This document shows positions 19,464 through 23,483 of a DNA stretch of 64,000 nt, one piece after another. Positions within the stretch are counted from its first letter, which is position 1. The number at the start of each line of letters is the position of its first letter. The stretch is from the NCBI GenBank assembly GCA_947624295.1, contig CANQJV010000003.1:1-64000 (forward strand), read 5' to 3'. This DNA is from an uncultured Ruminococcus sp. (GTDB taxonomy: Bacteria > Bacillota > Clostridia > Oscillospirales > Ruminococcaceae). The translations under genes were made by a program, and so were the position numbers. Below the pieces are notes generated by a model. That model worked only from the letters and a program-made list of their open reading frames with translations, ran no database searches and was not told the DNA's origin.

Positions 19464-20384
19464 ATGAACATTGAAGTCAACAGAATAAATTCAGGTATTG
19501 AACAAAATCCGCAGGAATATGTTAAATCAACTAATGAAATATATTTCTGGCATATAAGAGAAATCGCTGAAAATATCGCAAAAAATAAAGCTGAAAAACC
19601 CGTCATACTTCTTTCGGGACCTTCAGGTTCAGGGAAAACAACAACCGCACTTATAATTGCGAAGATGCTGAGTGAAATGGGCTGTCCTACTCATACGCTT
19701 TCTATGGACAATTATTTCAGGTCACTCACTGACAAAGAACGTGAACTTTCTGTTTTAGGGAAACTTGACCTTGAATCGCCTGACAGGGTTGACAAGGATT
19801 TGCTGAACAGGCAGATTGACGATATAAGCAGCTGCAAAGCCGTTGATATTCCGCACTATAACTTTGCGGAATCAAGGCGTGACGGCATAAAAATGAATTT
19901 CAAACGGAATGAGGGCGAACTTGTTATTTTCGAGGGCATACACGCTCTTAATCCCGATGTTATAACATTTAACGAAGATAAACTCTGCAAACTGTATGTC
20001 AGCGTAAGAACACGTATCGTATACAATGATATTATCCTGCACCCCTCTAAAGTCCGTCTTATGCGGAGAATGATACGGGACAGGAATTTCCGCAAGCGTT
20101 CACTGCGTGAAACAATGAATATGTTCCATAGCGTTGAGAACGGCGAAAACAAGTACATAATGCCTTACAAGCACCGTTCGGACTATGATATAGATACTTT
20201 TATGGCGTACGAAATGAACGTTTACAGGGATAATCTGCTTGATGAACTGAAAGCAATGAATGATGTGCCTGAACTTGCGGACGTTACTGAAGTACTTGAA
20301 AATCTTGATTCGCTTGACATGAAATATATTACGCCTGATTCGCTTATATGTGAATTTACAGGCGGAGGAATGTTCAAATATTAA
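19464..20384 (+). CDS. Uridine kinase / phosphoribulokinase-like nucleoside kinase
   Basis: P-loop LLSGPSGSGKTTTA, SMDNYFRS, VIFEGIHALNP. Confidence 0.85.
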   Translation: MNIEVNRINSGIEQNPQEYVKSTNEIYFWHIREIAENIAKNKAEKPVILLSGPSGSGKTTTALIIAKMLSEMGCPTHTLSMDNYFRSLTDKERELSVLGKLDLESPDRVDKDLLNRQIDDISSCKAVDIPHYNFAESRRDGIKMNFKRNEGELVIFEGIHALNPDVITFNEDKLCKLYVSVRTRIVYNDIILHPSKVRLMRRMIRDRNFRKRSLRETMNMFHSVENGENKYIMPYKHRSDYDIDTFMAYEMNVYRDNLLDELKAMNDVPELADVTEVLENLDSLDMKYITPDSLICEFTGGGMFKY

Positions 20385-20402
20385 AATTATTCACTAAAAA
20401 TA

Positions 20403-20427
20403 AAAGGGACTGTAAATAGTCCCTTTT
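20403..20427. terminator. Bidirectional terminator between convergent genes
   Basis: AAAAGGGACT-GTAAAT-AGTCCCTTTT. Confidence 0.8.
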
Positions 20428-20429
20428 GT

Positions 20430-20975
20430 TTATTTATTGAACATTTTCTTGAATCCTATTCTGTCAAGCAGAAGTGAAACTGCCACAAAAAGCAATGAAC
20501 TTGCAAAAACCTGTATGCAGTAGTCAGGGAGTTGTGTAAACGCTGCTGTAATTGCTGTCCACGAAATACCGCCTGCCATTACAGTACCTTCATAGAGGGC
20601 ATAGCCTACTACGCACACAATAAGTGACGGGATAATTCCGAGGATATTTCTCCATGTGAGAATTTTTTCGCTTTTATTTGAGAAAAAAAGTGCAGTGACT
20701 GCTTTTATAACAACAGTTGCGGGAATCCACACGGGGAAACCTGATAAACCGTCCGCCAATGCTCCTCCGATTGCGCCGGCTGCCATTGCGTACGGTGTAG
20801 GGAGAATACAAGCGGCAAGGTAAATAAGTCCGTCACCTGCGTGAGTATACCCTGCGCCTGTAGGTACGTGCAGATACGCTGTAAAAACGTATATAAGTGC
20901 GGCGAAAAGTCCTGTTGTTGTAATCAGGCGCATTTTAGCCATTGAAACTGATTTTGTTCCCATTTTAATCATCAC
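20430..20975 (-). CDS. ECF transporter S component-like integral membrane protein
   Basis: Polytopic; AALIYVFTAYLHVPTGAGYTHAGDGLIYLAACILPTPYAMAAGAIGGALADG pattern. Confidence 0.75.
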   Translation of the reverse strand: MMIKMGTKSVSMAKMRLITTTGLFAALIYVFTAYLHVPTGAGYTHAGDGLIYLAACILPTPYAMAAGAIGGALADGLSGFPVWIPATVVIKAVTALFFSNKSEKILTWRNILGIIPSLIVCVVGYALYEGTVMAGGISWTAITAAFTQLPDYCIQVFASSLLFVAVSLLLDRIGFKKMFNK

Positions 20976-21014
20976 TCCGTGTTCAAATTCCTATCATAAT
21001 AATAGGTTATGTTT

Positions 21015-21043
21015 ATTATAACACATTATATCCAAAATTGCAA
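21015..21043 (-). promoter_or_regulatory. Promoter of ECF S component gene
   Basis: TTGCAA-N17-TATAAT with TGT extended -10. Confidence 0.6.
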
Positions 21044-21128
21044 TAGTATTTTTACACAATGATAATTAAATTTTTTGCATTATTTTGTAAATATTTTCAC
21101 ATAGAATAAATTACGCCTTAATTTTCTG

Positions 21129-21359
21129 CTATTTATTCACTTCTTTTACATTAGTACGCCCTAAAATATAGTCTGTTGAAACTTTATAGAAGTCCGCAAG
21201 TGTAATGAGGTGTTCCACGGGTATCGTCTGAAAACCACGTTCATAGCGTGAATAAACAGTTTGTTTTGTTTTCAGCAACTCCGCTATCTGCGTCTGATTC
21301 ATGTCCTTATCCTCACGTAAATCCCTTAATCTTTGAAAATACACAAAAATCATCTCCAA
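21129..21359 (-). CDS. XRE-family HTH regulator
   Basis: LRDLREDKDMNQTQIAELLKTKQTVYSRYERGFQTIPVEHLITLADFYKVSTDYILGR. Confidence 0.9.
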   Translation of the reverse strand: MEMIFVYFQRLRDLREDKDMNQTQIAELLKTKQTVYSRYERGFQTIPVEHLITLADFYKVSTDYILGRTNVKEVNK

Positions 21360-21404
21360 TATATGTATAATATGACGATTTTCAAAAAAAAATCAGTCAA
21401 CATA

Positions 21405-21433
21405 TTGACTTTAGCATATTTTCATGGTATAAT
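21405..21433 (+). promoter_or_regulatory. Strong promoter with no downstream annotated CDS
   Basis: TTGACT-N17-TATAAT, plus strand. Confidence 0.65.
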
Positions 21434-21439
21434 GTGTGT

Positions 21440-21590
21440 TATAGTACTAATAAGTACTATAAGTGTTGTTTGTCATAGAAATAAACAGAAATAATGTTAT
21501 TGAGAATTAAAGATATTTTGAGAAAACTCCTTAAACCCAAACAACACAAAAACCGTTATGCTGAGTGGAAACAGCATAACGGTTTTATTT
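21440..21590 (+). ncRNA. Candidate small structured RNA
   Basis: Promoter at 21405-21433; 5' hairpin ATAGTACT/AGTACTAT (21441-21460); 10-bp closing stem GTGTTGTTTG/CAAACAACAC (21463-21472/21538-21547); terminator at 21550-21590; no convincing ORF. Confidence 0.55.
21550..21590. terminator. Bidirectional terminator
   Basis: 14-bp perfect stem AAACCGTTATGCTG/CAGCATAACGGTTT with flanking A and T runs. Confidence 0.85.
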
Positions 21591-21602
21591 ATAGTATCTG
21601 AT

Positions 21603-23483
21603 TTACGACAATTCAAACATACCTGTATAAAGCTGATAATATTTGCCTTTTTGTGCAATAAGCGCATCGTGATTGCCACGCTCGATTATTTTTCCGTACT
21701 CCAGCACCATAATAGCGTTAGAGTTACGGACTGTTGAAAGCCTATGCGCTATGACAAATACTGTCCTGCCATTCATAAGCGAATCCATACCCTTTTCAAT
21801 AAGAGCCTCTGTACGTGTATCAATCGAACTTGTTGCCTCGTCAAGAATCAGTACAGGCGGATTTGCAACGGCTGCACGTGCTATTGCGAGAAGTTGCCTC
21901 TGTCCCTGCGAGAGATTTGCACCGTCCGCCGTAAGCATTGTATTATAGCCGTTTTCGAGGTGAGTTATGAAACTGTCAGCGTTTGCGAGTTTTGCAGCAG
22001 CATATACTTCCTCATCAGTTGCATCAAGTTTACCGTATCTGATATTGTCCATTACTGTACCTGTAAACAAATGCGTATCCTGCAAAACGATTGACTGAGA
22101 ACGCCTTAAATCGCTTTTCTTGATTTTGTTAATATTTATTCCGTCATATCTTATCTTTCCGTCAGGCACATCGTAAAATCTGTTAATCAAATTAGTTATA
22201 GTTGTCTTGCCTGCTCCTGTTGAGCCTACAAACGCTATTTTTTGACCTTCGTTCGCATACAGGCTTATTCCGTTGAGTACAGTTTTTTCGGGTTCATAGC
22301 CAAAATACACGTCATCAAATTCAACACGCCCACGGACTTCCGTGTAAGTTACAGTGCCGTCCGCCTTGTGAGGGTGTCGCCAAGCCCATATATCGCCGTT
22401 TTCGGACTCAACAAGTTCATTGCCTTTTCTTTCTGCCTTTACAAGCGTAACATAGCCGTTATCAGCTTCAGGTTCTTCGTCAATCACCCTGAATATACGT
22501 TCCGCACCTGCCAACGCTGTAAGAACGGAGTTAAGCTGTTGAGATACCTGCGTAATCGGCTGAGAGAATTGCCTTGTAAATTGCAGATACGAAACAAGTT
22601 TACCTATATTCATTCCGCCAAAACCATTAACTGCCATTATACCGCCTACAATTGCAGTAGCAGCATAGTGCAGATACGAAAGATTGTTCATAATAGGCAT
22701 AAGAATATTCGCAAATGTATTCGCACGTGTAGCCGCCTCACAAAGTTCCTCGTTCAGCTTATCAAATTCTTCTATTGCCTTATCCTCGTGACAGAATACT
22801 TTTACGACTTTCTGCCCGTCAATCATTTCCTCAATATATCCGTTTGCTTTGCCGAGTGCTTTCTGTTGTGCAATAAAGCCCTTGCTGCTCCTTTTGCCTA
22901 TGAATCCGATTACGTTGACGATAATAACAAGCATTACAATGACAATTATCGTAAGAATCCAGCTGTACCACAACATAAGCGCAAATACTCCGACAATTGT
23001 TATTGCTGAGCTGATAAACTGCGCAATACTGTTGCTGAGCATTTCACGGAGCGTATCTGTATCATTTGTGTAAAGTGACATCAATTCGCCGTGAGTATGT
23101 TTGTCAAAATATTTTATCGGCAAAGACTCCATTTTGTTAAATAAGTCGTTTCTTATACGCATAAGAGTTGTTGTTGAAATCTGCATCATCATACGCTGAA
23201 ACATAAACGTTGAAAATGCGCCTACAGCATAAACTACCGCCATTCCTATGAGAATCATTATAAATTTTGACTTATCCCACTCGCCTTGCAAGCCGTCAGC
23301 AATATTATTCACAAGAGGTGTAAGCAAGGCATTTCCCGCAACACCTGCTATTGAACTGAAAATTACACCTACGACAACAAGCGCAAAATGCACTTTGAAA
23401 CCGTACATATAGCTGAAAATACGCTTGATTATGCCCTTGACATCGGACGGCTTTTCCATTGGTCTGTTTTTTCTCGGAGGCAT
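21603..23483 (-). CDS. ABC exporter, fused permease/ATPase (heterodimer half)
   Basis: Six-TM region plus VGSTGAGKTTITNLI, LSQGQRQLLAIARA, LILDEATSSID. Confidence 0.93.
   Translation of the reverse strand: MPPRKNRPMEKPSDVKGIIKRIFSYMYGFKVHFALVVVGVIFSSIAGVAGNALLTPLVNNIADGLQGEWDKSKFIMILIGMAVVYAVGAFSTFMFQRMMMQISTTTLMRIRNDLFNKMESLPIKYFDKHTHGELMSLYTNDTDTLREMLSNSIAQFISSAITIVGVFALMLWYSWILTIIVIVMLVIIVNVIGFIGKRSSKGFIAQQKALGKANGYIEEMIDGQKVVKVFCHEDKAIEEFDKLNEELCEAATRANTFANILMPIMNNLSYLHYAATAIVGGIMAVNGFGGMNIGKLVSYLQFTRQFSQPITQVSQQLNSVLTALAGAERIFRVIDEEPEADNGYVTLVKAERKGNELVESENGDIWAWRHPHKADGTVTYTEVRGRVEFDDVYFGYEPEKTVLNGISLYANEGQKIAFVGSTGAGKTTITNLINRFYDVPDGKIRYDGININKIKKSDLRRSQSIVLQDTHLFTGTVMDNIRYGKLDATDEEVYAAAKLANADSFITHLENGYNTMLTADGANLSQGQRQLLAIARAAVANPPVLILDEATSSIDTRTEALIEKGMDSLMNGRTVFVIAHRLSTVRNSNAIMVLEYGKIIERGNHDALIAQKGKYYQLYTGMFELS

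Follow-up and report, generated by a model that had tools for sequence, protein, structure and literature searches.

A putative small RNA gene at a probably XRE-controlled promoter in Ruminococcus, with a candidate RNA partner upstream of hup

The locus and the predicted RNA

The window, by which we mean the whole 64 000 nt stretch of DNA analysed (G000:C3), belongs to a genome whose relatives with names in the databases are members of Ruminococcus, R. flavefaciens among them. It carries a small XRE repressor gene and, divergent from it, a predicted small RNA whose own promoter and intrinsic terminator flank a non-coding body. Beyond the XRE gene lies an ECF riboflavin-type S component. Convergent to the predicted RNA, on the minus strand, are two ABC exporter genes. 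The locus was compared across 125 congeners, mostly metagenome assemblies, and across 88 distinct loci with an XRE homologue and sufficient upstream sequence. Its features are as follows.

21129..21344, minus strand: XRE repressor gene, divergent from the RNA; 71 aa from GTG at 21344 (Pfam HTH_3, E 1.5e-12)
21352-21357, minus strand: Shine-Dalgarno sequence of the XRE gene, GGAGAT
21405..21433, plus strand: sigma-70 type promoter TTGACT-N17-TATAAT with TG before the -10 (-35 TTGACT at 21405-21410, -10 TATAAT at 21428-21433, spacer 17 nt), kept in orthologous loci
21440..21590, plus strand: predicted small RNA of ~150 nt, its body found in five species
21441..21460, no strand assigned: operator-like palindrome ATAGTACT-AATA-AGTACTAT at +1, core of a 9 bp inverted repeat and putative XRE site
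21463..21472, plus strand: 5′ arm of the closing stem, GTGTTGTTTG
21489..21507, plus strand: invariant core AAATAATGTTATTGAGAAT, complementary to an RNA candidate upstream of hup
21538..21547, plus strand: 3′ arm of the closing stem, CAAACAACAC, pairing with the 5′ arm
21549..21590, plus strand: intrinsic terminator with loop AGTGGAAA, showing compensatory changes in relatives

The promoter named in an earlier sequence-only reading of this DNA is present, matches the consensus at 11 of 12 positions and is the top promoter-like site within 20000-23000. The perfect 8 bp hairpin that the same reading placed at +1 also exists as a palindrome at that position, but it is 9 bp long (TATAGTACT-AATA-AGTACTATA, ~21440-21461) and is better read as a DNA operator than as an RNA hairpin, the same palindrome being found ahead of protein genes. 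XRE orthologues adjoin the same promoter and operator elsewhere in the genus: TTAGTACT-N4-AGTACTAA is matched at 12 or more of its 16 positions in the divergent region of 84 of the 88 XRE loci, with a modal position (58 loci) exactly 36 nt from the start of the -35, so that the palindrome is both fixed in place and co-conserved with the regulator gene, as at an XRE-controlled promoter. In 12 loci the best copy abuts the -35 on its upstream side. Because the same palindrome occupies the same place in loci expressing lipoproteins or membrane proteins, it is most likely the XRE operator. In this genome a palindrome within two mismatches of the consensus occurs once, and three-mismatch matches are fewer than a reversed control gives; on the simplest reading, the XRE protein would act here at one site only. 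A literature search on AGTACT operators found nothing relevant.

The predicted transcript has a folding energy of -45 kcal/mol, where shuffled sequences give -18.9 +/- 3.0 (z -8.8, with 0 of 200 shuffles as low), and the architecture of 21405-21590 is well beyond chance. A 10 bp closing stem enclosing 65 nt is present as had been claimed, with all 10 pairs formed in the window, and the terminator hairpin (21549-21586), previously given 14 bp, has 15 pairs, an 8 nt loop and a U-rich tail. The same hairpin is terminator-like on the minus strand, where it would serve the convergent ABC exporter genes.

The RNA had not been recognized as 6S, SRP or tmRNA, and an Rfam search agrees: no family reached its gathering score anywhere in the window, and at permissive thresholds the RNA locus gave weak matches, far under gathering scores. 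Two other origins were considered and rejected. No match was found that would indicate a phage origin of the RNA, and a dispersed or multicopy element is not what the exact 15-mer core describes, occurring once per genome in 8 of 125 genomes, of which five are the orthologous loci and the remainder about as many as reversed-control matches; other core-like BLAST matches were short.

Conservation of the body and exchange of the regulated gene

The RNA body occurs in 5 of the 125 congeners (the window, G124, G137, G062 and G027), always at this XRE promoter. Searching GTDB with the XRE protein yielded 80 loci, in part from genomes already in the set, and none of them added a member; a covariance-model search returned no additional locus with XRE context, its other matches appearing to be hairpin-like. 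At one locus (L274; G020:C105, ~3276 and ~4351) two core-like matches lie 1075 nt apart, both weak by BLAST and by covariance model. There are thus five members, two of them nearly identical, and structural covariation is thin.

Within this set, all five species share the same 19 nt core, between flanks that vary. The closing stem keeps 9 of 10 pairs, one of them through a compensatory change, in G124 and in G137; it has 7 of 10 in G027 and 6 of 10 in G062, as counted by script on hand-assigned arms (MAFFT and covariance-model alignments misregister the closing stem of the window). It is therefore maintained in three of the five members, weak in G027 and broken in G062, and the invariant element is the core inside it. 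A terminator is found in four of the five species, that of G062 differing; between the window and G124/G137 it has undergone three compensatory and two wobble changes with zero broken pairs and an identical 8 nt loop. Taken with the core and the divergent reading frames described below, these terminator changes point to conservation as an RNA beyond any reading frame, in what are few sequences.

In G124, G137 and G062 the terminator is followed by no operon gene directly. In G027 (L116) a small operon has the body as its 5′ leader, without a terminator; the body runs into an RBS and a 29 aa membrane-like ORF, after which come DUF1413 and SHOCT genes. The earlier suggestion of a stand-alone RNA, or of one under XRE control, holds insofar as the body is conserved, has its own terminator and encodes no plausible protein, and the operator tracks the XRE gene genus-wide; as a description of every species it fails at G027.

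At other XRE loci the products downstream of the operator vary, and include lipoprotein-like, SHOCT, DUF1413, DUF4190-like and zinc-ribbon membrane proteins. A crude scan placed a cargo ORF in 68 of 84 XRE loci; some of these are false positives, lying past the terminator of the RNA at two RNA loci. Throughout L129-L208 the promoter and operator upstream of the XRE gene are retained and the regulated gene changes between species. Five protein-cargo loci (L063, L066, L077, L078 and L083) show a second promoter-like element, GAACATCTGAAATGATATAATG, between the operator and the first ORF. In a tree of the XRE region, from whose rows G137 was left out (truncated XRE), the window, G062 and G124 fall in a five-row set with two protein-cargo loci (support 81), and G027 falls in a separate group (97, starred) whose other members are without the RNA. 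This placement of the RNA-bearing loci suggests that the regulated gene is exchanged at a fixed promoter; a possible alternative is that the RNA was retained, with losses elsewhere.

A candidate partner upstream of hup

The complement of the core, TTCTCAATAAC, has 33 sites in the five RNA-bearing genomes, self included. One of them is the same intergenic segment, upstream of hup (HU), in the genome of the window, G124, G137 and G062. The region has a promoter-like sequence, ~265 nt and a terminator.

G000:C2:129680-129944 (L283, outside the window), minus strand: hup-upstream RNA candidate of ~265 nt, conserved, with a terminator; L284-L312 in congeners

BLAST detects this candidate in 91 of the 125 congeners, and a 23-mer from it is found with up to three mismatches in 83, against zero reversed-control matches. 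Alignment of 30 copies shows no variation over a run of >30 nt around TTTTTTCATGTTTTCTATTCTCAATAACTTATTTT, which is predicted to be largely unpaired. Rfam returned no match for the candidate. Its predicted loops include CCCTCTCAT and CAGTGCTA. A mini-ORF within the segment, MFSILNNLF, has no Shine-Dalgarno sequence, and its variants often differ at third positions.

The core of the small RNA could pair with this segment over 12 bp, one bulged U and then a further 6-7 bp, and the complementarity is present in all four RNA-bearing genomes that hold the hup-upstream candidate. When either partner was shuffled, the 12 nt match recurred in 11-12 of 20 000 trials and the duplex energy was equalled in 1-2 of 1500, a P value of ~1e-3 that is uncorrected for the whole-genome search by which the segment was picked. 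Ranking targets by energy alone with a 42 nt core was abandoned as non-discriminating, many other sites pairing about as well.

The complementarity of the core to an invariant segment, predicted to be largely unpaired, suggests that the small RNA may be a sponge of the hup-upstream RNA candidate. This idea remains a lead because of the fifth species: G027 keeps the core, but a 23-mer search found no copy of the hup-upstream segment in it, and the coding sequence that precedes hup there leads on to hup with no RNA candidate in between, an arrangement shared with seven relatives (L343-L350, in G117, G140, G123, G139, G002, G125, G027 and G026). Without partner and without terminator, the G027 body could have been repurposed after partner loss, or the partner could be the wrong one.

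Proposed mechanism, alternatives and known systems

The anatomy of the locus, its conserved promoter, operator, core and terminator, and the complementarity of the core are computed features, and they are consistent with a model where the XRE protein would bind the +1 palindrome and repress both the RNA and, probably, its own gene. Once repression was lifted, an RNA of ~150 nt would be made from its own promoter to the intrinsic terminator, and would present the invariant 19 nt core (AAAUAAUGUUAUUGAGAAU) inside the closing stem and act through base pairing. As partner the hup-upstream RNA is the best candidate, and the small RNA would be its sponge or antagonist. The RNA is probably functional and non-coding. 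We regard an XRE-controlled non-coding small RNA as likely, with transcription and XRE binding as inferences, and the explanation as a whole, an XRE-repressed small RNA gene with the hup-upstream RNA as its best partner candidate, as probable on balance. That the hup-upstream RNA is the specific partner, with the pairing and effect that this would entail, is put forward tentatively. More speculative is the wider picture of a cargo-switching repressor locus at which a few species swapped a protein for an RNA that targets the unpaired segment of a genus-wide hup-upstream RNA.

The body might instead be a relic, an untranslated leader and terminator left with little function of their own after a protein cargo was lost. 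The majority of orthologous loci do hold a protein gene at this place, and the G027 body is the terminator-less leader of a small operon. A relic would not, however, be expected to keep 19 nt identical in five species while the flanks vary, or a terminator preserved through compensatory changes. A promoter with no useful product to drive seems to decay, to judge by L151, a locus without a cargo gene whose operator and promoter are degraded; unlike those of L151, the promoter and operator of the RNA-only loci are still intact, and we consider a relic improbable. The arrangement in G027, with RBS-bearing genes after the body, would also suit a cis-acting leader or attenuator for downstream plus-strand genes, but the next genes in the window are convergent, and the terminators of G124, G137 and G062 have no operon gene right after them, which leaves this the faintest of the prospects considered.

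A coding function was also weighed. In each of the five species ATGTTATTGAGA falls within the invariant core and could begin a peptide starting MLLR(M/I), translated from a short mRNA without a Shine-Dalgarno sequence. The frames, however, are 8, 13, 20, 35 and 46 residues long with unrelated ends, and no Shine-Dalgarno-like motif was found in the RNA body of the window or of the other four species, whereas the cargo proteins of sister XRE loci mostly have a clear, strong one. The sequence-only reading saw no good RBS-linked ORF, which is borne out, and named conservation of a peptide frame alone as one finding that would count against an RNA; conservation instead reaches upstream of the ATG and into third positions. 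Because of the missing Shine-Dalgarno sequence and the divergent frames a peptide product is unlikely, and an mRNA dedicated to it very improbable. A stronger competitor, though short of an even prospect, is a small RNA acting in trans, whose pairing partners would be one or more mRNAs instead of the hup-upstream RNA, as would fit both the persistence of the core in G027 and the many other sites with which the longer core pairs about equally. Against it, a shallow search placed the exact 11-mer sites common to the RNA-bearing genomes either within long frames or within the hup-upstream segment, and no start-codon site was shared among them.

If the proposed sponge is real, one dedicated phage-like repressor would have gained control over a genus-wide hup-upstream RNA. 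More generally, the repressor locus appears to swap its regulated gene between species under a constant promoter and operator, with an RNA among the options. The locus would make a simple test system: a single repressor, what appears to be a single operator, an RNA and one candidate RNA as its partner. The hup-upstream RNA candidate, with its invariant segment of >30 nt in the aligned copies, may be the more important lead.

Among known systems, 6S RNA and the other housekeeping RNAs of Rfam share a similar size, a closing stem and a terminator with the predicted RNA, but were rejected as an identity, there being no Rfam match and a presence in 5 of 125 congeners only. The regulator resembles Cro/CI-like XRE repressors (HTH_3) in being a small HTH-only protein with a divergent promoter and an operator at +1, sometimes, in this type of locus, with a second operator beside the -35, and phage repressors are up to 58% identical to it. 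It differs in being chromosomal, with no phage genes seen beside it, and in that the regulated gene varies and is here an RNA. Our literature search found no small RNAs described in Ruminococcus. Pairs of small RNAs and sponges do have a precedent in the Clostridia, in RIL-seq of Clostridioides difficile (PMC10267692); like those sponges, the RNA described here is a terminator-bearing small RNA, part of which is complementary to a further RNA candidate and could pair with it, whereas its pairing is predicted only, and control by a neighbouring XRE gene, like the exchange of cargo, is peculiar to this locus.
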